22,183 nt of DNA from positions 1-22,183 of IMG/VR virus record IMGVR_UViG_3300020205_000619; one strand, 5' to 3'. A program made the translations under genes and the position numbers. The notes below the pieces were generated by a model. That model made no database searches. It was not told the origin of the DNA and was given only the letters and a program-made list of their open reading frames with translations. This DNA is from a virus. Below, piece by piece: positions 7,197 to 22,183 of the stretch (position 1 is the stretch's first letter; every line of letters starts with the position of its first letter).

Positions 7197-8650
7197 TGCA
7201 ACATTTTTATGATGGTCAGATTAGACGATATCTTACTCAGACAATTCGTGTCTTGAGTAATTTTGTTGTGAAATATGGCGACGGTACACTAGTGCGTATT
7301 CCAGTAATATATGGTGACCAGGACCGACAGGCTGCAAATATTATAAGACAAAATACTGCATCCACTGTTAGCAGTGTTCCGAGAATAGGCATTTACATAT
7401 CCGGACTAGACTTGGATTCTAGCAGGTTGGGAGACAGTAGTTTTATTGGTAAAATGCATATACGAGAACGCGGCATCGATGCTGAAGTAAACCAGTACAC
7501 GCAAGGCCAAGGACGTAACTATACAGTCGAGCGACTAATGCCGACTCCATTTAAGCTGACAATGAAAGCTGATATATGGACTGCGAACACTGATCAAAAG
7601 TTACAAGTGTTAGAACAAATACTAGTGCTGTTTAATCCTACATTAGAAATACAAACTACAGACAACTATGTTGACTGGACCAGTTTATCAGTATTGAGTA
7701 TCAGCTCGCTGTCTTGGAGTTCGCGCACAGTTCCTGTAGGAGCCGACACTCCAATTGACATTGCCACAATAACATTTGAGGCTCCTATATGGATTAGTCC
7801 GCCTGTTAAAGTCAAGCACCTTGGAGTTGTTACTAGCATTATCAACAGCATCTATAGAAATACAGACACTACCGCAGATAGTTATATCGATGGATTGGGC
7901 CAGCCGATGACTTCAGGTACTACCAATCTTTCAACAAACTTGTCTATAAATGTTATCACAGCATCAGACTATGTTATTCAAGTTTATAATGGCCAAGGTT
8001 CCCTGCTTTCACGTCGAGAAGGTTATACTCCAAGAGAACCTACATTAGAAATACCAGTGCGCGGTGGATCTCCTATTGCATGGACTGAATTGTTTGTCAA
8101 ATACGCTGATAAGTATGTTGCCGGGTCTAGTATGATTTATTTGATACAGCCTAACGGAACTGAAGTGGTAGGCACATTTGCCATTAACCCACTAGATGAC
8201 AACCTAATCACTATAACATGGGACGATGCTACATTCCCAACTAACGATTTGCTCGCGCCAACTGGCATAGAAGGTAATCGTGCCAACGGTCTAAGTGCAG
8301 GCACATTCGATGCTATTATCAACCCGCAGAAAGTATATCCTGGACACGGCATGCAAAACGTAGAAGCAGGTGATAGATTTTTAATTATCGATGATATCGG
8401 TTCTGCAATAAATCAAGACGGTGCCGATGCTTGGAAAAACGATAACGGCACTGATTTTGTTGCCCGTGCTAATGATATTATCGAGTGGAATGGCTCGGCT
8501 TGGAACATTGTATTCGACGCTCAAGAAGACAACCAGCACCTTGTGCAAACTAATATATACAGTGGCATTCAGTATGTGTGGAATAACATAATGTGGGCTA
8601 AATCTTTTGAGGGCGAGTACGCACCGGGATCATGGAGAATAGAATTGTAA
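7196..8650 (+). CDS. gp15: Tail sheath stabiliser / tail completion protein, T4 gp15 family, with C-terminal extension
   Basis: gp15 caps the head-proximal end of the tail, stabilises the sheath and docks to the neck. Residues 1 to about 220 match the T4 gp15 pattern: FYDGQIRRYLTQTIRVLSNF, VRIPVIYGD, VPRIGIYISGLDLD, RLMPTPFKLTMKADIWTAN, KLQVLEQILVLFNPTLEI and TFEAPIWISPPV. T4 gp15 is 272 residues. This product is 484, so about 250 residues are added, with Ser/Thr/Asp-rich strands and a Trp-rich end (IIEWNGSAW, YVWNNIMWA). The start overlaps the gp14 stop by one base, so translation is probably coupled. The last 19 bases overlap the Nudix gene. Confidence 0.9.
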   Translation: MQHFYDGQIRRYLTQTIRVLSNFVVKYGDGTLVRIPVIYGDQDRQAANIIRQNTASTVSSVPRIGIYISGLDLDSSRLGDSSFIGKMHIRERGIDAEVNQYTQGQGRNYTVERLMPTPFKLTMKADIWTANTDQKLQVLEQILVLFNPTLEIQTTDNYVDWTSLSVLSISSLSWSSRTVPVGADTPIDIATITFEAPIWISPPVKVKHLGVVTSIINSIYRNTDTTADSYIDGLGQPMTSGTTNLSTNLSINVITASDYVIQVYNGQGSLLSRREGYTPREPTLEIPVRGGSPIAWTELFVKYADKYVAGSSMIYLIQPNGTEVVGTFAINPLDDNLITITWDDATFPTNDLLAPTGIEGNRANGLSAGTFDAIINPQKVYPGHGMQNVEAGDRFLIIDDIGSAINQDGADAWKNDNGTDFVARANDIIEWNGSAWNIVFDAQEDNQHLVQTNIYSGIQYVWNNIMWAKSFEGEYAPGSWRIEL

Positions 8651-9081
8651 CAGATCGGATAGTATGCAGTGGAGCATTGATGTATGCTCGCGATACCCAA
8701 CGATTTTTATTGTTACAAAAAGCACATGGCAAACACAAGGGCACATGGGGCTTAGTGGGTGGTACTAACGAAGCAGGCGAGACTGCTTGGCAAGGATTAA
8801 AGCGTGAAATTTCTGAAGAAATTGGAGATTTTCCCAAAATAATCAAAACAATACCTTTAGAAACATTTGTTAGTAACGACCAAGTGTTTAATTTTCACAC
8901 CTACTTGTGCGTGATAGATAAAGAATTTATTCCAGTGTTGAGCGACGAACACTGCGGATGGGCGTGGTCAACAATCGATTATGCTCCTAAGCCTTTGCAC
9001 CAAGGTCTTAGAAATAGTTTTACTAATAAAATAATCAAGACTAAATTACAAACAATCTTTGATCTTATTGACTTGATTTAA
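8632..9081 (+). CDS. Nudix hydrolase
   Basis: This family cleaves a nucleoside diphosphate linked to another group (for example oxidised dNTPs, dCTP, ADP-ribose or NADH). The Nudix box is complete: G44, five residues, E50, seven residues, then R58-E-I-S-E-E-I-G65, with the metal-binding glutamates present. At 149 residues it is a single-domain enzyme; KGTWGLVGGTNEAGET before the box is typical of MutT-like members. It starts inside the end of gp15 (19-base overlap, other frame), and its last 17 bases overlap the end of the convergent halogenase-like gene. Nudix genes are common in T4-like phages and usually thought to manage nucleotide pools. The substrate cannot be read from sequence. Confidence 0.92.
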   Translation: MENRIVTDRIVCSGALMYARDTQRFLLLQKAHGKHKGTWGLVGGTNEAGETAWQGLKREISEEIGDFPKIIKTIPLETFVSNDQVFNFHTYLCVIDKEFIPVLSDEHCGWAWSTIDYAPKPLHQGLRNSFTNKIIKTKLQTIFDLIDLI

Positions 9082-10558
9082 TCATGTCGATCCACTGCTT
9101 GTGATCAACAGATGCCAATTCAACTGCCTGTTTAATCTTACGAATGTCTGCAGATACTTGTGCGGCACGAGCATATAGTCCCTGACTACGTAAAAAATGT
9201 TCAATGCGTGTGTTGTCTTTATACATACCATGGCCGTACGCGATACAATTAAAACTAGTCGATTCAAACATCCATCTATCGTCTTCGATATCCCGGTGTG
9301 TTATAAAACTGTGTTTTAGTTTTTCTTCCATGCTACAGAGCCAGCCAGGTTTATTTTCATCAAGATATCTCCAAAATTCTGAATCCGTTCTGCCAGTATT
9401 GTAGAAAAATCTTATGTATTTAAAACTGTTTTCGTATATAGCTTCTGCAAGCCTATTATAATTTTCAATATCAAATGCTAAATTCTTACCGTGATAGATT
9501 CTAACAAAATTGTCTACTTGTGTAATTAAATGATGTATACTAGTAGCTTCTAACGGTTCAACGAAGCCGCTAGCAAGACCCATGGCCACACAATTTCCAA
9601 TCCATAAATTTTTGAAATACCCATTACTAAAACTAATAACTCTGTCACTGGCTAATTCTACGTTGTGTGTTTTTAAAAGCCATTGATTAAAATCTTCCTT
9701 GGCTTCTTGATCTGTAGTAAATTTACTACTATATACGTAGCCAGTTCCCCTTCGATTAGATAGCGGTACATCTAAAATCCAACCATTTTTACTAGCTTCT
9801 GCTGTGGTGTATGGCGGAATACTATCAAATTCTTTGAACAGCGGATTAGGTATAGTTCTATTTGTAGGTAGTTGGTCTGAAATATCAACCCACTCGGGAT
9901 TAAGATTTTTAATTAAAGTTCTAGAATAGCCCGATGCATCGATAAAAATATCTGCCACAATTTCTTGCCCATCTTTAAGATGTATAGATGTAATATTCCC
10001 GTTTGCAACATTTACGCTATCGACAACTCCATCTATTATAGTCAGTTGATCTTTGAATTTATCTTCAACATACTTACTAAACAATGTTGCATCAACGTGC
10101 ATTGCATGACGATATTGTAAGTTGTTTGCAGACGGGATTGTATTATGTTCAAAATAATATTTGCCGTAATTATACGATCCGTCGTACTGATCGTGTAAAA
10201 TATCATAAGCATCAATGGCATTATAAAACATCAACGGCTGGTCGAGCCTTGCCAATGCATCGTTTAGTGGAAAACTGTGATACCATTCGCTGCCTTCGTG
10301 GGTCCAGTTTTTAAATTTTAAACCTAGTTTAATTGTTGCGTTGCAATGTTGTATCAACTCAACTGTTGTTATGCCAACTACTTTTAAATATGCATCAAAT
10401 ACAGGAGTTAAACTTTCACCGACACCAATTCCAGGAGTATTATGATCGTATATTACTCGTATATTAGCCAGTGGTCCCCAAAATGCTTTCATATATGAGG
10501 CGGCTATCATACCTGCGGTGCCTCCGCCCACTACTACAATATTATACTGGTTTTTCAT
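9065..10558 (-). CDS. Divergent flavin-dependent tryptophan-halogenase-like protein (copy A)
   Basis: This FAD-dependent enzyme of the tryptophan halogenase superfamily has 497 residues. Visible parts are the FAD dinucleotide-binding GGGTAG at 11-16, GIGVGES at 43-49, and a lysine at 77 in the N-A-T-I-K context that matches the catalytic lysine of PrnA/RebH (hypohalous acid relay). ASGFVEPLEATS at about 329-340 carries the conserved acidic region. The usual W-x-W-x-I-P motif is altered to GWILDVP (259-265), lacking the second Trp. Start and stop are linked to copy B: ATGA overlap with its stop, with GAGGA upstream. It is the last gene of the minus arm. It may be a halogenase with an unusual substrate or a flavin oxygenase. 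Confidence 0.82.
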   Translation of the reverse strand: MKNQYNIVVVGGGTAGMIAASYMKAFWGPLANIRVIYDHNTPGIGVGESLTPVFDAYLKVVGITTVELIQHCNATIKLGLKFKNWTHEGSEWYHSFPLNDALARLDQPLMFYNAIDAYDILHDQYDGSYNYGKYYFEHNTIPSANNLQYRHAMHVDATLFSKYVEDKFKDQLTIIDGVVDSVNVANGNITSIHLKDGQEIVADIFIDASGYSRTLIKNLNPEWVDISDQLPTNRTIPNPLFKEFDSIPPYTTAEASKNGWILDVPLSNRRGTGYVYSSKFTTDQEAKEDFNQWLLKTHNVELASDRVISFSNGYFKNLWIGNCVAMGLASGFVEPLEATSIHHLITQVDNFVRIYHGKNLAFDIENYNRLAEAIYENSFKYIRFFYNTGRTDSEFWRYLDENKPGWLCSMEEKLKHSFITHRDIEDDRWMFESTSFNCIAYGHGMYKDNTRIEHFLRSQGLYARAAQVSADIRKIKQAVELASVDHKQWIDMIKSSQ

Positions 10559-12015
10559 GCTTGTCCTCTTATTGCTTCTAGCATCTGTTTGTGTGTAATT
10601 GTATTATCCTGCATTGATTTATTTGTGTTTATTAAATCTTCTATTACTCCGTATGCATGTTCTCTCGCGCCTGGTGGCATTGTATTGTATTCATGAGTAA
10701 TACTATCTCGATCAAATAATCCAAGACCGTGCAAAATAAAAATAAAATGCAAATCTTTAAACAATACATACGGAGATACATCTCCAAAATCATCAGCAAC
10801 TGGCATTTTATGCCGCCATATATTCAAGTTTGTTTGCAAACTATCGGGTAATTTTACATCTGATACTTTTCTCCAAAACGCAGTATCGCGTCGAGGACAA
10901 ACAAAATGTAATAAAATAAAGTCCCGAATGTTGTGTACGATGTCAGTAAACGATTTGTTATATTTGTCTATTACATCTTGATTGTAATTTACAAGTTTGT
11001 GCATTAGTAAAAACGATTGCTGAATACTAGTTCCAATACTACTGGCTTCTAGAGGTTCGACAAAGCTACTGCTTAAACCAATTGCACAACAATTTTTAAT
11101 CCACGGTGTGTCAAGCGAGCCTGGATCAAATTTAATATGTTGTCCTATTTTTATTTCATGTCCTAACACACTCTCAACTTCTGCCTTGGCTTGATCAGGA
11201 GTTAAAAATTCATCATCGTAAATATAACCATTGCCCCATCTGCCAAATACAGGCGTGCGAAATAGCCAACCATAGTCCATGGCTTTTGCTAAACTCCACA
11301 TATTATAATTGTCAGTATCTGGTGTTTGAAATACTATAGCACTATTTGTCTTTAAATATTCTTTATGCGACACCCATTTTGCACCTAGCTTGCTAATTAA
11401 GAATTTCTTAAATCCAGTACAATCGATATAAAAATCGTATTTGTAAGTAGCATCTTCGCTTTGTAACTCGTCAATATCACCGCTAGCTGTTAATGTAGCA
11501 TCTGTTATTTCGTCGTGATAAATTGCAATATCCCTATCCAGTGCAATTTTTGTTAAGTAATCATTTAGTTTAAACGTATCAAAGTGATACTGTGCAACCG
11601 GTGATACATTATTTTCTAAGAACCATTTTTGTACCTTGTTATCCCAGAAGATTTCTCCGTTCATTTCTTTTGCAGGTGCACCATCGCTTACCATCTTACC
11701 AAAGATTATGGGATAATTTTTCTCCCATACTAAATTGTAGCCATCTTGTATACTATGCATATAGTCTGGTACTCCCCAGTCTTTAAACATAATACCTATC
11801 TTAAAAGTTGCATCGCAAGATTTGATCATCTCGCCTGCGTTTATTCCTACAAAGTTAGCAAAGTTTAACCAGTGCTCAGTCGAGCCTTCTCCTACTCCAA
11901 CAATCCCAATGCGTTTTGAACAAACAATATCTACCTGACTATCTGGGAATCGTTTCTTCATCATAAGAGCAGATACTAGTCCGGCGGTGCCGCTGCCTAC
12001 AATGCAAATTCTCAT
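10555..12015 (-). CDS. Divergent flavin-dependent tryptophan-halogenase-like protein (copy B)
   Basis: This 486-residue product starts at MRICIVG; I chose ATG 12015 because GGAGG lies six bases upstream and the ATG overlaps the previous stop (ATGA). An upstream in-frame start at 12039 has no such support. FAD motif GSGTAG is at 7-12, GIVGVGEG near 37-44, the catalytic-type lysine K72 in C-D-A-T-F-K, and LSSSFVEPLEASS at about 314-326. In place of W-x-W-x-I-P it has GWLFRTP (249-255), again without the second Trp. It shares layout with copy A but is clearly diverged, so this is an old duplication or two separate acquisitions. It is coupled at both ends by ATGA overlaps, implying the two proteins are made together. 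Confidence 0.82.
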   Translation of the reverse strand: MRICIVGSGTAGLVSALMMKKRFPDSQVDIVCSKRIGIVGVGEGSTEHWLNFANFVGINAGEMIKSCDATFKIGIMFKDWGVPDYMHSIQDGYNLVWEKNYPIIFGKMVSDGAPAKEMNGEIFWDNKVQKWFLENNVSPVAQYHFDTFKLNDYLTKIALDRDIAIYHDEITDATLTASGDIDELQSEDATYKYDFYIDCTGFKKFLISKLGAKWVSHKEYLKTNSAIVFQTPDTDNYNMWSLAKAMDYGWLFRTPVFGRWGNGYIYDDEFLTPDQAKAEVESVLGHEIKIGQHIKFDPGSLDTPWIKNCCAIGLSSSFVEPLEASSIGTSIQQSFLLMHKLVNYNQDVIDKYNKSFTDIVHNIRDFILLHFVCPRRDTAFWRKVSDVKLPDSLQTNLNIWRHKMPVADDFGDVSPYVLFKDLHFIFILHGLGLFDRDSITHEYNTMPPGAREHAYGVIEDLINTNKSMQDNTITHKQMLEAIRGQA

Positions 12016-12788
12016 ATAGTACCTCCACGGTAAGGACAATTTCCTTCTAGGGATTTAGATAGTAAGTCTCGAGTTAGTGAAGGTTTAAGAAACGTTTTTG
12101 CTCCAGTTGAGGTTTGAGTTTTCTTAATCCACTCTGCTTCGTCTATCACGTGTGTTTTTAATTCTATAGGTGTATCTGTTAACGGAATTATATGCACAAG
12201 TGGCATACCGAGCGGTAATACAAACTCCTGTGTAGTTGTAGGAATTTCAACAAACGTATGTAAATGCAAGGAATGTTGATTTTTAAAATCAACTACGCCA
12301 CCAGCTGGTGCAATCTTATTAATCCACATAGGATTGTCGTTAGTTGTCCAGTAGGGTTTTTGAATTAAAAATTTAACACCTGTAGATTCTTCTATGTGCC
12401 ACGGTAATACTATTTTTAAATGCTGATATCCCTGGAACCCATCCCATTGGCCGGGCCAGTGGCTTTCTAAGCTAAAAGGATTGTCAGCACTGATAAAAGA
12501 ATATCTCCCTTCTTGACTAATCATAACGCTGACGTCAGTCCACAACGGTGCCATAAATCCTGTTTTAAAATAATCTATTACTCCTGGACACCCTTTAATA
12601 GTGCCGGAAGGAATTTTGTGTACCTGACCCGAGCCCGGATTTCTTCGTTCTTCGATACGCTCACCTGGTATTTTTCGTAACCAGTCGGGATAAAATCTTA
12701 TGGATGGCAAAATAGGTGCTGTTTTTTCTATAATAGCATCGTATGTAAAGCAATCAAGAACTAATTTTTTTTGTTTAAAGAAAAACAT
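12012..12788 (-). CDS. Conserved-looking protein of unknown function, Trp/Pro-rich
   Basis: I do not recognise a characterised family with certainty; it resembles unnamed proteins found in marine phages and bacteria. The 258 residues have no signal peptide or membrane helix. Visible stretches include RFYPDWLRKIPGE (31-43), TIKGCPGVIDYFKTGFMAPL (63-82), WPGQWDGFQGYQHLKIVLPW (111-130), VVDFKNQHSLHLHTFVEIP (165-183) and LPLGMPLVHIIPLT (191-204). The last part looks like a small beta barrel with a P-x-G-x-P-L-V-H turn, and the His pairs could bind metal, but no known triad is evident. It sits two bases after an oxygenase gene and overlaps the copy B start by ATGA, so its product is probably needed with those enzymes. 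Confidence 0.8.
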   Translation of the reverse strand: MFFFKQKKLVLDCFTYDAIIEKTAPILPSIRFYPDWLRKIPGERIEERRNPGSGQVHKIPSGTIKGCPGVIDYFKTGFMAPLWTDVSVMISQEGRYSFISADNPFSLESHWPGQWDGFQGYQHLKIVLPWHIEESTGVKFLIQKPYWTTNDNPMWINKIAPAGGVVDFKNQHSLHLHTFVEIPTTTQEFVLPLGMPLVHIIPLTDTPIELKTHVIDEAEWIKKTQTSTGAKTFLKPSLTRDLLSKSLEGNCPYRGGTI

Positions 12789-12790
12789 AA

Positions 12791-13450
12791 TTAAAGTTTA
12801 ACACCTAAGTTGCCGGAGATTGATATTCTATAATCGTCGGATGTAAAAAATGGGTTGACGCTGTGTGTTAATCCTGCTGGAAAAAATAGCATCCTTCCTT
12901 GAAATGTTTGATCTACTGGGATAGGCCATCCACTATGCATGCCTAATATATTAGAATAGTGAAATGTAAACTTTGAAGTTTTATTATTTTCGACTCCAAC
13001 ATCCGGAAACACTTTATACTCTTCTTCTAGTAAATACGGAATATTGATCCAAATTACAAAACTAAAGATTCCGGTATGCAAATGTGGCGGATTAAATTCG
13101 TGTTTCTTTTGAAAATTTACCCAAAGATCTTTTAATCTTAGTTGCGTTGAATCGTTGAAAACACCTATATCTACTTGACGGCTATACATCCATCTTTCGT
13201 CATACAATTTGGCTGCGTGGCAAACTAAAGGTTCTAGCGCATCCCAACATGTTTTGTCTAAAACATATTCGTGTTTTAAATGCCCTACAAGTTTATTTTG
13301 GAATCCAGGTGCTGACTTAAAATTATCTTTATAAATCCGGTCTGCCGAAGAAGATAAAATTTGCATAATATCTTCAGGTACTTGAATATCGAGTACGCCG
13401 ATATTTGGCATGTCTCTGTATGTAATGTGTAAGTCGCTTTTTATTGCCAT
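12791..13450 (-). CDS. Putative 2-oxoglutarate/Fe(II)-dependent oxygenase, paralogue 2 of a tandem pair
   Basis: The likely double-stranded beta-helix oxygenase has 219 residues. The iron-site region is N-P-P-H123-L-H125-T-G followed by FSFVIW. The distal half has H196-S-V-N-P-F, and R208 in the DYRISISGN strand, spaced as expected for 2-oxoglutarate binding. The first site is H-x-H, not the classical H-x-D/E, as is common in one branch of phage oxygenases. It is closely related to the gene at 13460-14122 (shared LRLKDLWVNFQKKHEFNPPH and KFTFHY blocks). AGGA lies before the ATG. The substrate is unknown; its position upstream of two flavoenzymes suggests hydroxylation or another oxidative step in the same pathway. 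Confidence 0.72.
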   Translation of the reverse strand: MAIKSDLHITYRDMPNIGVLDIQVPEDIMQILSSSADRIYKDNFKSAPGFQNKLVGHLKHEYVLDKTCWDALEPLVCHAAKLYDERWMYSRQVDIGVFNDSTQLRLKDLWVNFQKKHEFNPPHLHTGIFSFVIWINIPYLLEEEYKVFPDVGVENNKTSKFTFHYSNILGMHSGWPIPVDQTFQGRMLFFPAGLTHSVNPFFTSDDYRISISGNLGVKL

Positions 13451-13459
13451 GTTATATCC

Positions 13460-14122
13460 TTAAGCTGACAATCTTAAATTGCCTGCTACTGAAATTCTAA
13501 ACTCGTCAGATGTATAAAACGGATTTACACTATGATTTAAGTGCGACGGAAATAGTGCTATATTGCCTTCAAATTCTTTGTCTACATTAAGTGTATAATG
13601 TTGCATCTGTCCAAGTACGTTTACATAATGGAATGTAAATTTACTAGTACGGGTTGGGCCGCTTTTTATTTCAGGAAATACTTTCTCTTCTTCTTTTAAA
13701 TCGTACGGGATACTGATCCATATAACAAAACTCATGATTCCAGTGTGCGTATGGGGAGGATTAAATTCATGTTTCTTTTGAAGGTTGACCCATAAATCAG
13801 TTAGTCTTAATTGCTTGGGTACTGATACATTAAATTGCTCGTCAAGAGCTTGAAAATAATTCCACTTTTCATTATACAGCGATGCCACATATAACAAAAA
13901 CGGTTCTAAAATAGGTATACAAGTATCCAGGCCAAATTCGTGACTCATATGACCTAACAACAAATTTCGATAATCAAACGCCGAGTCAAAATTGTTATCC
14001 ATCATGCGTTTGATTTCTGTATTTAACGCAGCCATAACGTCTTTAGGCACTTGCGCTAATAGAACTCCATACGTTGGAAGTTCTCGAAAATCAACCATTA
14101 TTTTATCAAGTGTTTGGGTCAT
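13460..14122 (-). CDS. Putative 2-oxoglutarate/Fe(II)-dependent oxygenase, paralogue 1 of a tandem pair
   Basis: This is the first gene of the minus arm, 220 residues. It has N-P-P-H124-T-H126-T-G then MSFVIW, KFTFHY at 161-166, H197-S-V-N-P-F-Y and R209 in EFRISVAGN. The domain order and the H-x-H...H...R pattern match its neighbour, and the pair clearly arose by tandem duplication. Similarity begins at the first residues (MVDFRELPTYGVL against ITYRDMPNIGVL), supporting the start at 14122 although no good Shine-Dalgarno sequence is visible. It is nine bases from the next gene and probably heads a five-gene transcript running to 9065. Confidence 0.72.
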   Translation of the reverse strand: MTQTLDKIMVDFRELPTYGVLLAQVPKDVMAALNTEIKRMMDNNFDSAFDYRNLLLGHMSHEFGLDTCIPILEPFLLYVASLYNEKWNYFQALDEQFNVSVPKQLRLTDLWVNLQKKHEFNPPHTHTGIMSFVIWISIPYDLKEEEKVFPEIKSGPTRTSKFTFHYVNVLGQMQHYTLNVDKEFEGNIALFPSHLNHSVNPFYTSDEFRISVAGNLRLSA

Positions 14123-14210
14123 TAAGGTCTTGTTTGTAGTAGCTTATATATCATGATTATGCTCTAGCACCGCTTGTTTTAGATAAATTATTAAACTGAA
14201 GGAATTTTAC
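14123..14210. promoter_or_regulatory. Divergent control region between the two arms of the accessory cluster
   Basis: These 88 bases separate oppositely transcribed operons, so promoters for both arms must lie here or just inside the genes. On the plus strand GATAAATT (14182-14189) is one base from the phage late motif, followed by a good ribosome site (GAAGGA, 14198-14203) seven bases before the ATG. On the minus strand TATATAAG (14143-14150) is a weaker candidate about 20 bases before the start. No convincing sigma70 pair was found. Late-class expression is therefore suggested but not shown. Confidence 0.45.
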
Positions 14211-15803
14211 ATGCTAAACAAACATATCAAAAAAATTGTAATTGTAGGAGGTGGGTCTGCTGGATGGATGACTGCTGCCACACTTATTAGATTTTTTCCA
14301 AATAACGATATTTCGGTGATAGAAAGCCCAGATATTCCGATTGTAGGAGTAGGTGAAAGCACATTAGGCGGCATACGACACTGGACCCATGCACTAGGAA
14401 TTGATGAAAAAGATTTCATGGAATATACCAACGCTTCCTATAAGTTAAGTATTAAATTTACCGATTTCTATGATAAAGATTACGGATCTTTTCACTATCC
14501 GTTCGGTGGGCCAATACTTACCGATGCTCCAGAAGGATTAAATGAATGGCCTGCCAAGAAAATATTCTACCCAGAGACTCCGGTGGAAGATTATTGCAGA
14601 ACATACTATGCACAAATGCCGTTGGTCGAGGGCAACAAATATAGCCGCAACGAAGATGGTGACATTGATGGGTTCCGACCAGAAAAAGACGTAGCATATC
14701 ACTTTGATGCTCAATTGTTTGGTAGGTGGTTGCGTGAAAGATATTGTTTGCCACGTGGTGTAAAACATATCTCGGAGACGGTTGTTAATACTGTAACTAA
14801 CAACGATGGCATTGAAAAATTAATTCTGGAATCGGGCGAAGAAATTAGCGCAGATTTATTTGTTGACTGTACCGGCTGGAAGAGTATGTTGCTAGGTGAT
14901 GCATTGAAAGAACCATTCACTTCGTATTCAGACATACTACCAAACAACAGGGCATGGGCGGTACAAATACCGTACGAAAATCCTGAAAAAGAAATAGAAC
15001 CGTACACTAACTGCACAGCCATTGGACATGGATGGTGTTGGAATATACCACTATGGAGTCGCCTGGGCACGGGCTACGTTTATAGTGACAAGTTTATTAG
15101 CCCAGAAGATGCTAAAGAAGAATTCAAAGAATACTTAATGAGCAGTAAAATGACTATTCCTAGAACACGCGAGCAAGTAGATGCGTTAACTTATAGAGAT
15201 ATTAGTATGCGTATCGGAATCCACGAGCGCACGTGGGTTAAAAACGTAGTTGCTATTGGGTTAAGTGCAGGATTTATTGAGCCATTAGAATCAAATGGGT
15301 TATTTACTGTTCACGAATTTTTAATGTTATTAGTAGCTGCCTTGGATCGTCCTCATATTGCACAATGGGACCGTGACGGTTATAATACTGCGGCCTTATC
15401 TATTTTTAGAAACGTAGCAGAATTTGTGGCCATGCATTACGCACTAAGTGCTCGAAATGATACTAATTACTGGCAAGCTATTTCTAATAAAACATTTAGC
15501 CCAGAAATGGTTAAAAGATTACCTACTATTAATCGAGGATTTGCAGACTTAGTTGATAAAAAATTCTTCCTTTTTGGACATGCAGGTACCGGCGGAATAC
15601 ATTGTGTTGCAACAGGGTTGAACTATATGGTAATGAACCGTTTAAACATATTACATGCGGAGTTCCAGTACGGAAATAATCCAAAAAGACACCTTGACGA
15701 ATTCGTATTTAGACGTAAGTTTTTACAGGCAAAGTGGCAAGCAGCCGCTGACAGATCTCCTAGTTTATTCCAATATTTAAAGGATAATATATATGGTAAC
15801 TGA
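14211..15803 (+). CDS. Flavin-dependent tryptophan halogenase, canonical motif set
   Basis: This protein uses FADH2, O2 and halide to form a hypohalous species that is relayed through a lysine to an electron-rich substrate such as an indole. The 530-residue length matches PrnA/RebH-type enzymes. Motifs are all present: GGGSAGW at 13-19, GVGEST at 46-51, K78 in N-A-S-Y-K, GWCWNIPLW at 273-281 (the W-x-W-x-I-P signature), and LSAGFIEPLESNG at 350-362. It has a strong ribosome site (GAAGGA). The partner flavin reductase is not in the window and may come from the host. The next oxygenase gene starts 11 bases before its stop. Family membership is near certain; free tryptophan as substrate is not. 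Confidence 0.92.
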   Translation: MLNKHIKKIVIVGGGSAGWMTAATLIRFFPNNDISVIESPDIPIVGVGESTLGGIRHWTHALGIDEKDFMEYTNASYKLSIKFTDFYDKDYGSFHYPFGGPILTDAPEGLNEWPAKKIFYPETPVEDYCRTYYAQMPLVEGNKYSRNEDGDIDGFRPEKDVAYHFDAQLFGRWLRERYCLPRGVKHISETVVNTVTNNDGIEKLILESGEEISADLFVDCTGWKSMLLGDALKEPFTSYSDILPNNRAWAVQIPYENPEKEIEPYTNCTAIGHGWCWNIPLWSRLGTGYVYSDKFISPEDAKEEFKEYLMSSKMTIPRTREQVDALTYRDISMRIGIHERTWVKNVVAIGLSAGFIEPLESNGLFTVHEFLMLLVAALDRPHIAQWDRDGYNTAALSIFRNVAEFVAMHYALSARNDTNYWQAISNKTFSPEMVKRLPTINRGFADLVDKKFFLFGHAGTGGIHCVATGLNYMVMNRLNILHAEFQYGNNPKRHLDEFVFRRKFLQAKWQAAADRSPSLFQYLKDNIYGN

Positions 15804-16401
15804 TTTATATCCGTTATTTGCTAGTCCTGTGATAACGGTAGATCACGACGATGCTGAACTCGGTAGTATTATCCAATATTGTAAAAGTCAATTAGAGTAT
15901 AAAATCAATAAAGGCGGAAATTTTACCAGTCTTAATACTGATGTATTTTCGTTAGATGCATTTGCTGCAATCAAAGCACTTGCTCTCGAGTCTGTAAAAG
16001 TATATACTAAAGAAGTTATGCAATGGGCAGATGGTCCTGAATTTTTTATCACTCAATCTTGGGTTAATAAAAACCCAACAGGTACTACGCACCATGAACA
16101 TTATCATCTTAACACATTGTTCAGTGGTGTTTTTTATTTAGAAACAGCCACGCCTGATTATATTTCGTTTTTTAGCGGTAAACAACCTTACATGAAATTC
16201 TACGAAGATGAAAAGAACATATGGAATAGTGATAGGTACGATTTGCTAGTAAAGCCTGGACGTTTTGTAATATTCCCCGCTAGCATTTTGCATAGTGTAG
16301 GAGAAAACCTTGCAACTCACGAAAGAATTAGTGTTGCGTTCAATGTGTTTGTTAAAGGACAAATTGGAAGTAAAGAACATTTAACTTATTTGGAATTATA
16401 A
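15793..16401 (+). CDS. Putative 2OG-Fe(II) oxygenase (2OG-FeII_Oxy_5-like), copy 1
   Basis: The 202-residue single-domain protein begins with the family's typical LYPLFASPV strand. Core features are FFITQSWVNKNPTGTTHHEH, the iron-site H103-Y-H105-L-N followed by FSGVFYL, the strand VIFPASILHSV with H167, and R178 in ERISVAFNVFVKG. This H-x-H-x-N...SGV-[FY]-Y pattern is characteristic of a family common in cyanophages and marine bacteria. The gene overlaps the end of the halogenase by 11 bases, implying coupled expression and a shared substrate pathway. It is related to the gene at 17335-17943. The reaction is probably hydroxylation; the substrate is unknown. Confidence 0.82.
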   Translation: MVTDLYPLFASPVITVDHDDAELGSIIQYCKSQLEYKINKGGNFTSLNTDVFSLDAFAAIKALALESVKVYTKEVMQWADGPEFFITQSWVNKNPTGTTHHEHYHLNTLFSGVFYLETATPDYISFFSGKQPYMKFYEDEKNIWNSDRYDLLVKPGRFVIFPASILHSVGENLATHERISVAFNVFVKGQIGSKEHLTYLEL

Positions 16402-16405
16402 AAAT

Positions 16406-17338
16406 ATGAAAAGAAATACTGCATTTTTAATTAATGGCGGGGCTGGTAGAGTAATATGTTCAATCCCTGCGTTTGAACTATACGAAAAGGAAAATCCCGA
16501 AGACGATTTTGCTATTGTTGTAGAGGGATTTTTAGATCTGTTTAAAGGCCATCCGTCGTTGTATAAACGTGCGTATGAGTTTGGACATCGCAGATTATTT
16601 GAAGATAAGTTAAAAAATATGGATTTTATTTCACCCGAGCCGTATCAAGTTTGGGAATATTACAATCAACAAGCATCTATATCACAAGCATTTGATATTG
16701 CTATTAATCATCAAGGAGTTCGACCGTTGCCTAAGCCCACTGTTGAATTAACTACTGAAGAAAAGTTAGGCGGTGAAGAAACTCTTAAAAATATAAGAAA
16801 AGATTTCAATAATAAAAAAGCAATTGTTTTCCAGCCGTTTGGCCGTGGTTCAAATCTACACAACACACACATAGACAATGGTGGTAGATCGTTCCTGCCG
16901 GAGCATGCTGCTAAGTTGATTAAACGATTACAGAAAAAATATTGTGTAATTGTTATGGATGAAAAACAACTAGATTTTAAAGCTCTCGGTTGCGAAGAAG
17001 CAGTTGTTCAACTTACTAACATGACCTTACGTAGATGGATGGGGGTAATTGCTGCTTCTAGCTATTTCATTGGCTGCGATAGTGTAGGACAACATATGGC
17101 TTACGCTTTGGATACACCTGCTACTGTTGTACTAGGGTCTACGTTTAAAGAAAATGTGTCCTACGATTCTAAAAAGATTTCCATAATTGATTTAGGCGAA
17201 AGCAAAAAAATGTATAGTCCTATTCGTATGTGCCATAATGAAATTGCAGATGTAAACAATGAAAAACTAATGCATCTGAGCGACAAAGATTACGACAAGA
17301 TTATTTCTAGTATCGAGGCTGGCATTATCAAAGTATGA
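16406..17338 (+). CDS. GT9-like (heptosyltransferase-type) glycosyltransferase
   Basis: The 310-residue product has the two-domain layout of GT-B enzymes of family 9. The N-terminal half opens with FLINGGAGRVICSIPAFELY (7-26), a nucleotide-sugar enzyme glycine loop. The C-terminal half has IVFQPFGRGSN (140-150) and YFIGCDSVGQHMAYAL (220-235), matching the GT9 donor-site pattern (x-G-x-D-S/T-x-x-x-H-x-A-x-A), then PATVVLGST. No membrane segment is seen, as usual for these peripheral enzymes. It is four bases from the preceding oxygenase and overlaps the next by ATGA. It may add a sugar to a surface glycan or to the product made by its neighbours; donor and acceptor are unknown. Confidence 0.78.
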   Translation: MKRNTAFLINGGAGRVICSIPAFELYEKENPEDDFAIVVEGFLDLFKGHPSLYKRAYEFGHRRLFEDKLKNMDFISPEPYQVWEYYNQQASISQAFDIAINHQGVRPLPKPTVELTTEEKLGGEETLKNIRKDFNNKKAIVFQPFGRGSNLHNTHIDNGGRSFLPEHAAKLIKRLQKKYCVIVMDEKQLDFKALGCEEAVVQLTNMTLRRWMGVIAASSYFIGCDSVGQHMAYALDTPATVVLGSTFKENVSYDSKKISIIDLGESKKMYSPIRMCHNEIADVNNEKLMHLSDKDYDKIISSIEAGIIKV

Positions 17339-17943
17339 AAGACTTTAGCATAATTCCACTGTTCCCATTGGCGTTATATAAGTCAAAATTTAGGGAGTTA
17401 AGCCATCTAGAATTAGATACTATAACTACGTACCCGGTTGAAAAGCAGCCTCTTGGAAATAGCAGTTCTCAAGCACCGTATTTTTTAGATACAGCTGGAC
17501 TAGAACAACTAAAATCCGACATAGATCAGCACGTAGACACGTATGTTAAAGAAGTAATGAAAGCACCGTATGAAGTTTATCTTACTAATTCTTGGAAAAA
17601 CTTGACATCGCAGAATGAACAACATATAATGCATAATCATACTAATAGTGTGATTTCTGGAGTATTGTATATTAAATCAAGTTACATACAGCCCACTATT
17701 TCATTCCACAGAATGCAGCCTCCTTACTTGTTGTCTTGGGAGCCAACTGAGTTTAACACATTCAATTCTATGGAATGGACTGTGCCAGTTGAAGATGGAG
17801 ATATTATTATTTTTCCCTCTACACTATTCCATTATGTTAAACCTAACATAAGTAACAAGGATAGGATAAGTGTTGCATTTAATACATTTGCTCGCGGACA
17901 TATAAAAACAGAATCAGCAGGTGCTGATTTAATTTTAAATTGA
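17335..17943 (+). CDS. Putative 2OG-Fe(II) oxygenase (2OG-FeII_Oxy_5-like), copy 2
   Basis: Like copy 1 it has 202 residues and the same fold: an IIPLFPLALY opening strand, YLTNSWKNLT, the iron-site H97-I-M-H100-N-H102-T-N followed by VISGVLYI, DGDIIIFPSTLFHYV with H166, and R177 in DRISVAFNTFARG. Identity with copy 1 is concentrated in the C-terminal third, so these are old paralogues. The start overlaps the glycosyltransferase stop by ATGA, so translation is probably coupled. The carbamoyltransferase begins two bases after its stop. It likely oxidises the same scaffold at another position, or a different substrate; the sequence does not tell. Confidence 0.82.
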   Translation: MKDFSIIPLFPLALYKSKFRELSHLELDTITTYPVEKQPLGNSSSQAPYFLDTAGLEQLKSDIDQHVDTYVKEVMKAPYEVYLTNSWKNLTSQNEQHIMHNHTNSVISGVLYIKSSYIQPTISFHRMQPPYLLSWEPTEFNTFNSMEWTVPVEDGDIIIFPSTLFHYVKPNISNKDRISVAFNTFARGHIKTESAGADLILN

Positions 17944-17944
17944 G

Positions 17945-19738
17945 ATGAATATGAATAAAAAACCAGTATGGATTGCTAGTATTGCACGTGGACATAATGC
18001 TAGTGTATGCTTGCTCAAAGATGGAGAGATTGTATTCTCTATCGAGGAAGAACGACTAAGCAGACATAAGTACGACGGCGGGCCGTATGCGTCTATGATT
18101 AAAATCCTAGATTATACTAAAGAATTAGATTACCTTGTAATTGCACATACACAATCATTGGCTGATACTGCTGGAAAAGTTGATTTTACAGGTGACGATG
18201 TATACACAGGCCTTGCTAGGAAATTAGGACTAATTCGTAGAAAAGAAAATATCTACAATCATCCACAAGTTATCGATTTAAGCCATATACATCACAAGTT
18301 GCATGCAGCTTGTGCATTTTATCGAAGCGGGTTTAAAGATGCAGTTGCAGTTATCGTTGACGGTGCTGGAACATTTTTACCGCTATCAGTAAACGGAGAA
18401 AATGTGATTGGTTGGGAAACTGAAAGTATTTACAAGTGTGCATACCCTAGTGAATTTGAAACATTATACAAGCATATAGGTGTGCGTGGGCCAAGCCCCG
18501 GACAACTAATTAAAGATTTCGATAGCAGTATGTATGACGAGCCGGGAAAAACACACCATGCACTAATTACAGACCGTGCAGGAATTACTAAAGTTTACGA
18601 AGCAGTTACACAGTACTGCGGCTGGAGTCCTATTGAAGCTGGAAAAACTATGGGACTATTCCCTTATGGAAAAGATAACCCAGCAATTCCCCGATTGTTT
18701 GATGACTCTAGTGTTGCTCCGTTAGCCAACAGGAATCTAATTGTTCCAACTTATCCAAATGCAGCACTTGTTAATATTGGATTGTTTGATTACTTAAATC
18801 AGCATAACAGTTCAGATGTTACACTTTTAGAAAATAGACGAGACTTAGCATATGCTTGCCAAACACAAACACAAGATCAAGTTGTTAGAGTAATTCGAAA
18901 AGCTGTCGAAATGTCAGGCAATAAAAATGTTGTTTTAAGTGGCGGATACGGATTAAATTGCGTTGCAAATTATCATTATTTGCAAGCATTAAAAGATGAA
19001 GGTATTAATTTTTATGTAGAGCCTATTAGTAATGATGCTGGAACTGCAATAGGTGCAGCTTTAATGCATTGGTACAAACTCACCGGTTCTAATCATATAT
19101 GTAAACACGATACATTGTATTTAGGCCCTAAACATACATATACCACTGATCAAGTTATAGATATAGCATATCAACCGGGTGTTGATATTCAAGATGCTAC
19201 ATACAAAGACATTGTCGAATTGCTTACTAAGAAAAATATTGTTACGGTTTTCCAAGGATCGAGCGAAAACGGTCCAAGAGCACTGGGCAATAGAAGTGTT
19301 ATATTTGATCCTCGATTTGTCGACGGTAAGGATTATGTCAACGAAGTTAAACACCGTGAATACTTTAGGCCGTTTGCTGGTAGTATTTTAGCAGAATATG
19401 CACACGAGTGGTTTGATCTGCGTGGGATGAAAGATAGTCCGTTTATGATGTATGCTGTGAATTGCCAGCCTGGGATTGCTGAAAAGATTCCAAGTATTAT
19501 TCACGTAGATGGCACTTGCCGTATACAAACAGTCACAGAAGAACAGAACTTTCACTACTACAATTTAATTAAAGAGTTTCATAATGAAACTGGATGTCCA
19601 ATATTGTTTAATACTAGTTTTAACTTAGGTGGAGAACCTCTAGTTGAAACATTAGAAGATGCTATTTGGACTTTACAAAATTCCGATATCGACTATTTGT
19701 TCTTACCGGAGTTTAATAAACTAATAACTGTAAAATAA
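17945..19738 (+). CDS. Carbamoyltransferase, NodU/CmcH family
   Basis: This enzyme transfers a carbamoyl group from carbamoyl phosphate via carbamoyl-adenylate to a hydroxyl, as in Nod factors, cephalosporins and tobramycin. The 597 residues comprise both expected domains. The N-terminal Kae1/TsaD-like domain has GHNASVCLLKDGEIVFSIEE (16-35), the His-rich DLSHIHHKLHAA (111-122), VDGAG (138-142) and LSGGYGLNCVANY (331-343). The C-terminal YrdC-like domain has ENGPRALGNRS (441-451), REYFRPFAGS (471-480) and FNTSFNLGGEP (555-565). A second ATG six bases in may be the true start, since GAG sits in better position for it. Such genes occur in cyanomyoviruses. Its acceptor might be a hydroxyl made by the flanking oxygenases. 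Confidence 0.93.
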   Translation: MNMNKKPVWIASIARGHNASVCLLKDGEIVFSIEEERLSRHKYDGGPYASMIKILDYTKELDYLVIAHTQSLADTAGKVDFTGDDVYTGLARKLGLIRRKENIYNHPQVIDLSHIHHKLHAACAFYRSGFKDAVAVIVDGAGTFLPLSVNGENVIGWETESIYKCAYPSEFETLYKHIGVRGPSPGQLIKDFDSSMYDEPGKTHHALITDRAGITKVYEAVTQYCGWSPIEAGKTMGLFPYGKDNPAIPRLFDDSSVAPLANRNLIVPTYPNAALVNIGLFDYLNQHNSSDVTLLENRRDLAYACQTQTQDQVVRVIRKAVEMSGNKNVVLSGGYGLNCVANYHYLQALKDEGINFYVEPISNDAGTAIGAALMHWYKLTGSNHICKHDTLYLGPKHTYTTDQVIDIAYQPGVDIQDATYKDIVELLTKKNIVTVFQGSSENGPRALGNRSVIFDPRFVDGKDYVNEVKHREYFRPFAGSILAEYAHEWFDLRGMKDSPFMMYAVNCQPGIAEKIPSIIHVDGTCRIQTVTEEQNFHYYNLIKEFHNETGCPILFNTSFNLGGEPLVETLEDAIWTLQNSDIDYLFLPEFNKLITVK

Positions 19739-20259
19739 TGATTAAACAATTCGACACTTTTACAGAAAATTGGCTGCATACTCAGGCTAAAGAACAACTA
19801 CTAAATCCTGGACTGGATTGGAATTTTCCCACGTTTGGTGCAAGCGATACTAATTTAGAGAATGCATGTTTTGGCAGATGTGCATTTAATCTAAGTAACA
19901 ACCACGTTAACTGGAATAGAGTCGAATCTCTAACATACGTATTTGATAGTTGGTTAGACCGTAATAAAGATTGGTTTAAAATTGAAAGTCTTGGGAGATG
20001 TATGATGAATTTTTATGCCAATGGACAACAAACTGTATGGCATACTGATAATCATTATAATATACCTGGGTTGTATAGCTTACTGTACTATGTAGATGAT
20101 AGCAGTGGTGGCACAGAGTTTGAAAATCAAGTAGTTTTACACAAAGAAAATACTGGAGTATTTTTTAATTCTCATATGCTACACCGTCCAATTGTTTCTA
20201 CACATCCTCGACGCATAAGTGTAAGCTGGGTTATGAAAGGAACTATCATAAATGGTTAA
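19738..20259 (+). CDS. Putative 2OG-Fe(II) oxygenase (prolyl-4-hydroxylase-like), copy 1
   Basis: This 173-residue protein has a complete classical facial triad: W101-H102-T-D104 followed by LYSLLYYVDDSSGGTEF, then HMLHRP with H149, and R158/R159 in PRRISVSWVMKG as the 2-oxoglutarate anchor. The spacing and the GG-T-E-F turn match phage and bacterial P4H-like oxygenases, which often hydroxylate amino-acid side chains. The ATG overlaps the carbamoyltransferase stop by one base (TAATG), and its end overlaps the next paralogue by eight bases. It is clearly related to the gene at 20252-20761 and distinct from the H-x-H oxygenases upstream. Confidence 0.86.
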   Translation: MIKQFDTFTENWLHTQAKEQLLNPGLDWNFPTFGASDTNLENACFGRCAFNLSNNHVNWNRVESLTYVFDSWLDRNKDWFKIESLGRCMMNFYANGQQTVWHTDNHYNIPGLYSLLYYVDDSSGGTEFENQVVLHKENTGVFFNSHMLHRPIVSTHPRRISVSWVMKGTIING

Positions 20260-20761
20260 ACATTTTAACAATATGTTACCTGCTTGGCTATACGGCAGAG
20301 TACTAAATCAAACATTAAATCCTGCAATAGGATGGCACTTTCCTGGAAACGGCGGATATCATGGAGACATAGATAAATCATGTTTTGCTGCTATGATGTT
20401 CGACGAAGAACGAAATTATTCAGACTGGCAAAATACCGAATCATTAAAGTATGCACTAGACTACTGGGTTGATGCAAATAAGGATTGGTTTAAATTTGAA
20501 AGACTTAACAGATGTATCTTAAATTTCTATACTCCTGGTATGACTATAGGATGGCATACTGATCATAGTAAAGATAATCATTTCACACTAATTTATTATA
20601 TCAATGAGTCCGACGGAGGAACTGAATTTAAAGACGTAAAAATACCGCATGTTGCAAACAGCGGTATTTTATTAAAATCAAAGGACTCACATAAAAATAT
20701 AGAGTCCTCTGTTCCTCGACGTATAAGTGTCGCTTGGATTATAGTGGGCGAACTGATTTAA
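20252..20761 (+). CDS. Putative 2OG-Fe(II) oxygenase (prolyl-4-hydroxylase-like), copy 2
   Basis: This 169-residue product is a tandem duplicate of the preceding gene. It shares the opening motif (KHFNNMLPAWLYGRVLNQ against KQFDTFTENWLHTQAKEQ), ALDYWVDANKDWFKFERLNR and the iron site W101-H102-T-D104-H. The distal site is H147 in KDSHKN with R156/R157 in PRRISVAWII. The GG-T-E-F turn is conserved. It begins inside the previous gene and is the last gene of the plus arm. Its stop overlaps the stop of the convergent tail chaperone by four bases, and a terminator-like hairpin for the other strand lies within its coding sequence. Confidence 0.86.
   Translation: MVKHFNNMLPAWLYGRVLNQTLNPAIGWHFPGNGGYHGDIDKSCFAAMMFDEERNYSDWQNTESLKYALDYWVDANKDWFKFERLNRCILNFYTPGMTIGWHTDHSKDNHFTLIYYINESDGGTEFKDVKIPHVANSGILLKSKDSHKNIESSVPRRISVAWIIVGELI
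20639..20670 (-). terminator. Terminator-like hairpin inside the last oxygenase gene, likely serving the minus-strand tail operon
   Basis: A perfect 10-bp inverted repeat (AAAATACCGC at 20639-20648 with GCGGTATTTT at 20661-20670) has a 12-base loop. On the minus strand the 3' arm runs into five T, and the hairpin sits about 88 bases beyond the chaperone stop. It lies wholly inside the plus-strand oxygenase coding region. The plus strand also has four T after the stem, so weak bidirectional action is possible. Confidence 0.55.
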
Positions 20762-21282
20762 GGATTATTTGCCTTGCCCCATTTCTCATCTGGGTTCCAT
20801 GGAGGTGTTGGCCAAGGAATTCCTAAGTGACTTTTGAGCTTGCTTAAATCCAATGTATCAGTCATATCTCTAAGTTGTTGGCGATACACTGTCCAGGCTG
20901 CTTTTTCTTCAGTTGTTAAATCTGCATCAGCTAACTGTGTCCAGTCACTGGTTACAAATCTGTGTAATCGCTGGCCGTGAATCCATCTACGATACTTTTC
21001 AGCAGGGGTTACTTCTACAAATATCCATTCTTGTTCAATAGTACCGTCTGGCTTCTTAACAATATCCCCCGGTGTTACTTCTTCCCATTCTTCCTGAGCT
21101 GGAAACTCTGCATTTTTAATCTTGACCAAATTCCTAGTAGCAAGTAACTCGGGTGTAAGATCCTGATATTGAATAATTCCTGGATTATCAGGCGAAACTA
21201 TCGCAAATAAATGGCGAACATTTTCCTCGATTAACGGGGGTCCGCTTGGTTCGCCGTCTTCATCTACATATGTATATAACAT
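20758..21282 (-). CDS. Phage tail fibre/tail assembly chaperone
   Basis: The C-terminal half carries the hallmark of the phage tail assembly chaperone family: SDWTQLADADLTTEEKAAW at 112-130, followed by YRQQLRDM and a Pro/Trp-rich end (GIPWPTPPWNP). Such proteins help fold or trimerise the fibre encoded next to them. The 174-residue product also has an acidic N-terminal domain (residues 1-90) likely to fit the specific fibre. It starts 22 bases after the fibre stop, with GGAG about eight bases before the ATG, so fibre and chaperone are co-expressed. This pairing is a usual late-gene arrangement and helps confirm the fibre assignment. Confidence 0.85.
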   Translation of the reverse strand: MLYTYVDEDGEPSGPPLIEENVRHLFAIVSPDNPGIIQYQDLTPELLATRNLVKIKNAEFPAQEEWEEVTPGDIVKKPDGTIEQEWIFVEVTPAEKYRRWIHGQRLHRFVTSDWTQLADADLTTEEKAAWTVYRQQLRDMTDTLDLSKLKSHLGIPWPTPPWNPDEKWGKANNP

Positions 21283-21304: not shown

Positions 21305-22183
21305 TTAAGCACTTCCTGATGGGTAGCATCTTCCAGTTGTGGGCCAAACAATACGCACTGCGCCTTTGCCGCCAAAACCGCCGCCGTGTGATGTACCTGA
21401 TCCACCACCACCACCGCCGTATGATCCTCCACAGTTGTAGCCGTGACCTTGTCCATTACTCCATGGTTCTCCCGGAATACCTTGCTCACCATTAGAGCCG
21501 CCACCGCCACCAGATCCAGTTTGATGGGTTGCTGGTGCTCTAGTATTGCCGCAAGTACCGTTTTGTCCTTGTCCTGTAATTCCAGTTCCACCGCCACCGC
21601 CTGTTCCGTATGTAGAACTGTGATGCGAACCAGCTGAGCCACCGCCGCCGAAACAGCCTGTGTGGCCGGAGTTACTATACCAGCACTGGTTAGGGCCATA
21701 GCCGCCACCGCCGCCACCGCCACCTGCGGTGTTAGGGAATGTAATAGTACCTGGGCCACCGCCACAGGTGCCGCCGCCGCCAGCAATACAGCCGCAACCA
21801 GTACAGCAACCACAATGGCCGCCACCGCCGATAATACCTGGGAAACATGACATTCCGCCAGCGGATTGGCTCCAACATCCGCCATTTCCTGCTTGCACAG
21901 TATAACCAGAACCGGGGCTAACCGATACGTTATTAGCGTATGATAAGCCACCTCCACCGCCACCACAAACGGCCCAGCCAAAATAGCCACCACCGCCACC
22001 GCCGATAACAGCTACGTTAACTGCAGTTACTCCTGGAGGAGCAGTCCATGTGTAAGCAGCAGTTCCGCCGTTGGCGCCAGATTGTGTACCTTGATATAAA
22101 GCCTGCCCTGGTGCAACATAAACTGCACCATAAAATGATGCTGATTGAACAATACACAAACATTGGAAACATGCACATGAAAC
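21305..22183 (-). CDS. Glycine- and cysteine-rich tail fibre / adhesin, C-terminal part (N-terminus outside window)
   Basis: The frame is open to the right edge with no ATG in frame; a TTG at 22159 is not a convincing start because coding character continues upstream (C-A-C-F-Q-C-L-C). After a beta-type module (TWTAPPGVTAVNVAVIGGG) come many Gly runs separated by Cys-, His-, Ser- and Tyr-containing loops, for example HCGCCTGCGCI. The end is KGAVRIVWP, a typical closing strand of glycine-rich phage fibre domains, as in fibres whose tip is a polyglycine-II sandwich. The adjacent assembly chaperone supports a receptor-binding role. The many cysteines, over a dozen in the visible part, are unusual. 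The Ala/Val-rich reading in another frame is an artefact of the repeats. Confidence 0.85.
   Translation of the reverse strand, partial: VSCACFQCLCIVQSASFYGAVYVAPGQALYQGTQSGANGGTAAYTWTAPPGVTAVNVAVIGGGGGGYFGWAVCGGGGGGLSYANNVSVSPGSGYTVQAGNGGCWSQSAGGMSCFPGIIGGGGHCGCCTGCGCIAGGGGTCGGGPGTITFPNTAGGGGGGGGYGPNQCWYSNSGHTGCFGGGGSAGSHHSSTYGTGGGGGTGITGQGQNGTCGNTRAPATHQTGSGGGGGSNGEQGIPGEPWSNGQGHGYNCGGSYGGGGGGSGTSHGGGFGGKGAVRIVWPTTGRCYPSGSA

Follow-up and report, generated by a model that had tools for sequence, protein, structure and literature searches.

What does a phage do with three halogenase-like flavoproteins, six oxygenases, a glycosyltransferase and a carbamoyltransferase encoded in its tail region? 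The question arises from a 22,183-nucleotide window (a 22 kb fragment), positions 1-22,183 of IMG/VR record IMGVR_UViG_3300020205_000619, in which twelve open reading frames (ORFs) are confirmed at 9065-20761. Distant relatives keep the same gene order, so this large aquatic bacteriophage probably uses these enzymes for the chemical decoration of some target, of which its own tail fibre is the likeliest candidate. The gene families agree with the first-pass annotation of this DNA: three Trp_halogenase flavoproteins, six 2-oxoglutarate (2OG)-Fe(II) oxygenases, a GT9-fold transferase, a carbamoyltransferase and one unknown, located, as also claimed there, between neck genes and tail-fibre genes.

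9065..10558, minus strand: HalA, Trp_halogenase-family flavoprotein of 497 amino acids (PF04820; GxGxxG, catalytic Lys and EPLE; GWILDVP)
10555..12015, minus strand: HalB, Trp_halogenase-family flavoprotein of 486 amino acids from ATG 12015 (PF04820; Lys and EPLE; GWLFRTP)
12012..12788, minus strand: U7084, phrog_7084, function not assigned by PHROGs (beta-rich model)
12791..13450, minus strand: OxyA, 2OG-Fe(II) oxygenase (PF13759, phrog_81)
13460..14122, minus strand: OxyB, 2OG-Fe(II) oxygenase (PF13759, phrog_81)
14123..14210, no strand: divergent intergenic region of 88 bases between the two arms, with promoter-like boxes both ways
14211..15803, plus strand: HalC, predicted VirX1-type flavin-dependent halogenase (PF04820; canonical motifs including WCWNIP)
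15793..16401, plus strand: OxyC, 2OG-Fe(II) oxygenase (PF13759, phrog_81)
16406..17338, plus strand: GT9-fold glycosyltransferase, phrog_8954 (model matches WaaF/WaaC/TibC; conserved GCDSxGQH motif)
17335..17943, plus strand: OxyD, 2OG-Fe(II) oxygenase (PF13759, phrog_81)
17945..19738, plus strand: CarT, NodU/TobZ/GdmN-type O-carbamoyltransferase (Carbam_trans_N and _C domains)
19738..20259, plus strand: OxyE, 2OG-Fe(II) oxygenase (HTD...H...R; phrog_274, labelled 'endonuclease V')
20252..20761, plus strand: OxyF, 2OG-Fe(II) oxygenase (HTD...H...R)

The two arms diverge, with the left arm (HalA-OxyB) on the minus strand and the right arm (HalC-OxyF) on the plus strand. The tight packing described earlier holds: neighbours within the arms are spaced from -11 (overlap) to +9 bases, and three junctions are 4-base ATGA-type overlaps. 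One of its gene starts is corrected, as HalB most likely begins at ATG 12015 rather than TTG 12039, giving a 4-base ATGA overlap with U7084; the closest relative, the fragment L013, shares this ATG start. The twelve genes include nothing for scaffold building, carrier proteins, export or resistance, and intergenic room for a precursor peptide is almost nil.

Relatives were gathered by scanning viral contigs with gp15, U7084 and GT9, followed by classification of their ORFs. At least three other contigs (3300010354_000046, 3300016467_000183 and 3300020160_000016) carry the complete set with gene order and both flanks unchanged, gp15-NUDIX lying on one side and a fibre chaperone and a glycine-rich tail protein on the other; the arrangement is therefore not due to chance. 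Protein identity is about 50-90% between the window and other viral contigs that share this order and these flanks, and L013 carries the left part of the cluster at 80-95% identity. These relatives encode one or two halogenase-like genes that the window lacks, among them a short gene adjacent to OxyE. The first-pass annotation had described a tailoring cluster without a scaffold maker, to be abandoned if the genes did not co-occur in relatives; the set does co-occur, and the cluster is real, co-conserved and jointly inherited.

More distant contigs (L097-L107) retain the HalC-OxyC-GT9-OxyD-CarT block, most of its proteins having fallen to about 42-70% identity and CarT reaching up to 85%. An extra oxygenase gene is inserted in two of them (L097 and L098), and the orientation of the block relative to gp15 is inverted in some. 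Judged by substitution ratios, the cluster genes are under strong purifying selection, with dN/dS against L013 of 0.07 for HalA, 0.03 for HalB and 0.03 for U7084, next to 0.06 for gp15.

Across relatives, the gp19-gp18-HNH-dNMPK-gp13-gp14-gp15-NUDIX block is nearly invariant, and the region past NUDIX varies. Halogenase-like, oxygenase, U7084, GT9 or CarT genes lie past NUDIX in 30 of the 39 loci having at least 4 kb of room, and glycine-rich, tail-type proteins come next in most slot regions read further out. The features bounding this slot in the window are:

7196..8650, plus strand: gp15-like tail sheath stabiliser, which groups the phage with jumbo myophages
8632..9081, plus strand: NUDIX hydrolase, left flank of the slot, conserved after gp15 and also in PA5oct-type phages
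20758..21282, minus strand: tail-fibre assembly chaperone (Phage_tail_APC, profile match), right flank of the slot
21305..22183, minus strand: glycine-rich tail protein, C-terminal part, the proposed acceptor (598-774 amino acids in four relatives)

The core of the right arm is the GT9-CarT pair. The GT9 gene scores just below the curated cut-off of PF01075 (20 versus 22 bits) and is thus called GT9-fold, not a Pfam GT9 member. Its sequence retrieved nothing useful from the PDB, and its predicted model (predicted local distance difference test score of 88) has 3TOV, WaaF, WaaC and TibC as top Foldseek hits, with E-values of 1e-10 to 1e-8. The heptosyltransferases WaaC/WaaF and TibC share with it the GT9 fold and the D-x4-H spacing, which marks the donor site in WaaC/WaaF, at identities of 8-17%. 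TibC is a protein heptosyltransferase that acts on adhesins. From the model, we infer ADP-heptose as the candidate donor.

CarT contains Carbam_trans_N (90 bits) and Carbam_trans_C (196 bits) domains, both above cut-off, and aligns with 7XB6, the novobiocin carbamoyltransferase, GdmN and TobZ in a PDB search; it is not NodU itself (141 versus 1000 bits). Among 80 GT9 loci, a count that includes near-duplicate contigs, a carbamoyltransferase lies near GT9 in 78, at most 2.5 kb downstream in 72 and just upstream in 6; the remaining 2 run into contig ends. In 84,980 bacterial genomes, GT9 yields only 7 hits, all on metagenome-assembled genome contigs and 6 with CarT near. We rejected a bacterial chromosomal home for GT9, as these seven are possibly phage contigs. 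Together, the GT9 fold and the GT9-CarT pairing point to a core step that would produce carbamoyl-heptose. A second, shorter Carbam_trans_N protein (about 320 amino acids) occurs elsewhere in relatives (G001:C1:52427-53146, with similar proteins in G002 and G003).

All three flavoproteins match PF04820 (E-values of 1e-107 to 1e-81; 299, 275 and 360 bits against a cut-off of 21), and the catalytic Lys and Glu (K79/E346 of PrnA) are retained in HalA, HalB, HalC and nearly all of 74 relatives. The WxWxIP motif is present in HalC (WCWNIP) and absent from HalA (GWILDVP) and HalB (GWLFRTP), where the replacements are conserved in the respective orthologues. The halogenase assignment is therefore made for HalC only: of the halogenation first proposed for all three, family membership stands throughout, and confident halogenation by HalA and HalB does not. 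The closest solved relative of HalC is VirX1, the cyanophage Syn10 halogenase (PDB 6QGM; E-value 3e-107), with the same Lys, Glu and WxWxIP, and HalC also keeps the FAD motif; VirX1 is reported to iodinate many substrates in vitro (Gkotsi 2019).

HalA and HalB differ from VirX1 in lacking WxWxIP and in forming old clades of their own, which lie nearest to RebH and tryptophan-5-halogenase. In a tree of 74 halogenase-like proteins, in which some deep placements are uncertain owing to long branches, HalA, HalB and HalC each fall in their own clade with orthologues, indicating old, independently kept lines rather than recent duplicates. HalA and HalB may be halogenases, or they may act as oxygenases in the manner of QhpG, a flavoprotein of halogenase fold by which tryptophan within a protein is hydroxylated (PMC7876137); HalC matches the QhpG model at 8e-13, under the curated cut-off.

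The oxygenases form two groups. OxyA, OxyB, OxyC and OxyD match PF13759 above cut-off and have an HxH...H...R pattern, against HxD/E...H...R in the superfamily. OxyE and OxyF score just under the PF13640 cut-off (25.6 and 25.7 versus 27 bits), yet contain the HTD...H...R motif. PHROG 274 carries the label 'DNA endonuclease V', whereas its members at window positions 19738-20761 possess the 2OG oxygenase HxD...H...R motif, so that the label looks wrong or inherited. In the distant contig L101, OxyF (15021-15533) is broken into two ORFs by a frameshift or a sequencing error. For the phrog_7084 protein in the left arm (12012-12788), fold comparison, a PDB profile search and one Pfam match each hint weakly at a dUTPase; as the fold hits are weak, with low template-modelling scores, they were not used to assign a function.

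The tail genes identify the lineage. Profile searches with PHROGs and Pfam place T4-type gp13, gp15, gp18 and gp19 in the window. The closest matches of gp15 are jumbo myophages: Sinorhizobium phage Phosso (34%), Agrobacterium phage Atu_ph07, Salicola phage SCTP-2 and the PA5oct group (Arenbergviridae). No Kyanoviridae or cyanomyovirus appears among the 20 listed of 62 records matching gp15, and six long records of relatives, some of them fragments, yielded neither psbA nor any other photosystem gene. The phage is a relative of jumbo phages with a T4-type tail architecture and not a cyanomyovirus, an origin that we rejected on the gp15 matches; the earlier label 'T4-like' is apt for the tail genes, and the cyanomyovirus setting implied there is not supported. 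The window copy of the gp14-like gene is split at 5698-6678 and 6747-7196, its two frames matching residues 1-311 and 310-473 of one 477-residue relative gene, which points to a frameshift or assembly error. A small HNH-like protein (3866-4201) persists between gp18 and dNMPK in almost every relative, in most cases behind a TAAATA box (25 of 32 loci), and looks like a fixed gene rather than a mobile endonuclease.

Related gene combinations have been described in cyanophages, where prnA, carbamoyltransferase and 2OG genes were listed by Sullivan et al. 2010 (PMC3037559). In cyanophage S-SSM6a, a halogenase/carbamoyltransferase/2OG cluster of 10 genes was interpreted by Iyer et al. 2021 as a system for a secondary metabolite or for the capsule (PMC7824862). 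Like the window, S-SSM6a combines a GT9-like gene, a Nol-type carbamoyltransferase, a 2OG oxygenase and a tryptophan halogenase in one run; it encodes one halogenase together with methylase and nucleotidyltransferase/rfaE genes, its GT9-CarT being followed by the nucleotidyltransferase and rfaE gene, whereas the window, from a jumbo-phage lineage, has three halogenase-like genes and six oxygenases and lacks sugar-precursor genes. Neither the HemK-like methylase nor the HAD phosphatase of the S-SSM6a type is found among the twelve genes. In P-SSM2 and S-CAM1, too, a GT9-like gene adjoins CarT; ADP-heptose-type genes come after the pair, and tail-fibre genes flank it. In the window, HalC, OxyC and OxyD are woven around GT9-CarT and the precursor genes are absent. 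The host recognition cluster of pelagimyophages (PMC7029224) likewise combines tail fibres and glycan enzymes in a variable island close to neck genes, but differs in phage lineage and enzyme mix. As a combination, these genes thus have a published precedent in a cyanophage (PMC7824862). New features are the non-cyanophage setting, the GT9-heptosyltransferase fold, the near-obligate pairing of GT9 with CarT, and a conserved set that is larger and includes three distinct halogenase-like lines.

Our best explanation, held tentatively as a whole, is that the cluster is one exchangeable modification cassette in a variable cargo slot beside the tail fibre, acting as an O-carbamoyl-heptose and halogenation/hydroxylation system on a phage-made acceptor, most likely the neighbouring glycine-rich tail protein. 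In the order that we propose, the GT9 enzyme would transfer a heptose-like sugar from an ADP-sugar to the acceptor, and CarT would carbamoylate the transferred sugar, yielding an O-carbamoyl-heptose like that of the Pseudomonas lipopolysaccharide (LPS) core. Aromatic or other residues on this acceptor would be hydroxylated by the 2OG oxygenases and halogenated or oxygenated by HalA, HalB and HalC. With the glycine-rich tail protein encoded next door as acceptor, the adhesin would leave the cell decorated, and the decoration could alter receptor binding or stability, or hide the adhesin. In its fullest form, which we consider unlikely, the product would be a hypermodified tail adhesin bearing a carbamoyl-heptose glycan together with halogenated or hydroxylated side chains made by multiple dedicated flavoenzymes and oxygenases, with HalA and HalB possibly serving as oxygenases on protein tryptophan; to our knowledge, such a combination of virion protein modifications has no precedent.

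Several observations weigh against this explanation. In Phosso (L009 14577-21116), the cassette position holds a nicotinamide adenine dinucleotide (NAD)-salvage operon (NAD synthetase, nicotinate phosphoribosyltransferase, adenylyltransferase, MutT and deoxyribosyltransferase) followed by minus-strand tail genes. Because the slot takes such unrelated cargo, adjacency to the tail fibre is only circumstantial for the target, and glycine-rich proteins also occupy the slot end in a cassette-less relative (L189). A phosphoheptose isomerase (GmhA-type) was not detected in ten lineage records, which contain isolated nucleotidyltransferases only; the idea that the lineage encodes its own ADP-heptose genes was rejected on this result. 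Upstream of gp13 and gp18, a TAAATA-type box is present in 41 of 49 and 28 of 31 loci, respectively (L013-L107; background 3%), which suggests that late promoters of the T4 kind operate in this lineage. The box is not enriched before cassette genes (halogenase-like, 4/63; oxygenase, 3/73); joint late expression with the structural genes is thus not supported, and late promoters were dropped as proof of such co-expression.

The intergenic region between the arms (14123-14210) contains a promoter-like GATAAATT box towards HalC and a GATATATA box towards OxyB. Only these two are conserved in close relatives, and neither is an exact match to the late box of the phage. The frequency in the window of TATAAATA with one mismatch is no higher than chance, and sigma-70 promoter and terminator scans are at chance level.

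The enzymes might instead act on the host surface, altering the LPS or capsule of the infected cell (e.g., by carbamoylated heptose) and thereby blocking superinfection or sparing progeny from receptor debris at lysis, which we regard as possible but somewhat unlikely. The GT9 fold is that of LPS heptosyltransferases, O-carbamoyl-heptose is known in the Pseudomonas LPS core through WapO (PMC8005017), and glycosyltransferases occur in the same type of region in pelagimyophages and cyanophages, for which the authors propose surface change (PMC7029224; PMC7824862). The GT9-CarT pair is also present in cyanophages, however, and cyanobacterial LPS lacks heptose (PMC4390846), so that cyanophage heptose probably serves something other than the ordinary host LPS core. 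The cassette, moreover, is devoid of membrane and O-antigen export genes. We know of no LPS precedent for flavin halogenases or for these oxygenases.

The published interpretation of the S-SSM6a cluster (PMC7824862) suggests a secondary metabolite, in which a host amino acid or sugar would be tailored into a halogenated, carbamoylated small molecule serving as toxin or signal. The solved relatives of CarT are antibiotic-type O-carbamoyltransferases (TobZ, GdmN and the novobiocin enzyme), consistent with this view, as is the broad in vitro iodination reported for the HalC relative VirX1. We judge it improbable, given that the twelve genes include no scaffold builder, carrier, export or resistance function and leave almost no space for a precursor peptide.

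Variable slot content, with many subsets among relatives, and the unrelated NAD-salvage genes of Phosso would also fit independent cargo genes with separate purposes that share a hotspot, their order reflecting slow recombination at a favoured insertion site. This is very doubtful, as the order of the HalC-to-CarT block survives inversion and large divergence and CarT almost always neighbours GT9. Hypermodification of DNA or nucleotides, with bases hydroxylated, glycosylated and carbamoylated, is highly improbable and was set aside: a viral-metagenome carbamoyltransferase modifies 5-hydroxymethylcytosine (PMC8670742) and U7084 has weak dUTPase-like fold hits, but a thymidylate-synthase partner is found in 0 of 10 relative records (several of which are fragments), the oxygenases belong to PF13759/PF13640 with no TET/JBP hits, and the cluster is located in the tail region.

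Viral halogenases, 2OG oxygenases and carbamoyltransferases have so far been counted as scattered auxiliary metabolic genes of unknown purpose. Here, such enzymes form one inherited unit outside cyanophages, with a two-gene GT9-CarT core across diverse aquatic phages. The enzyme set may be of use in biocatalysis. For a question that dates back to the first cyanophage genomes, a modification cassette directed at the tail fibre would offer both a chemistry that can be tested, carbamoyl-heptose, and a target that can be tested, the fibre itself.

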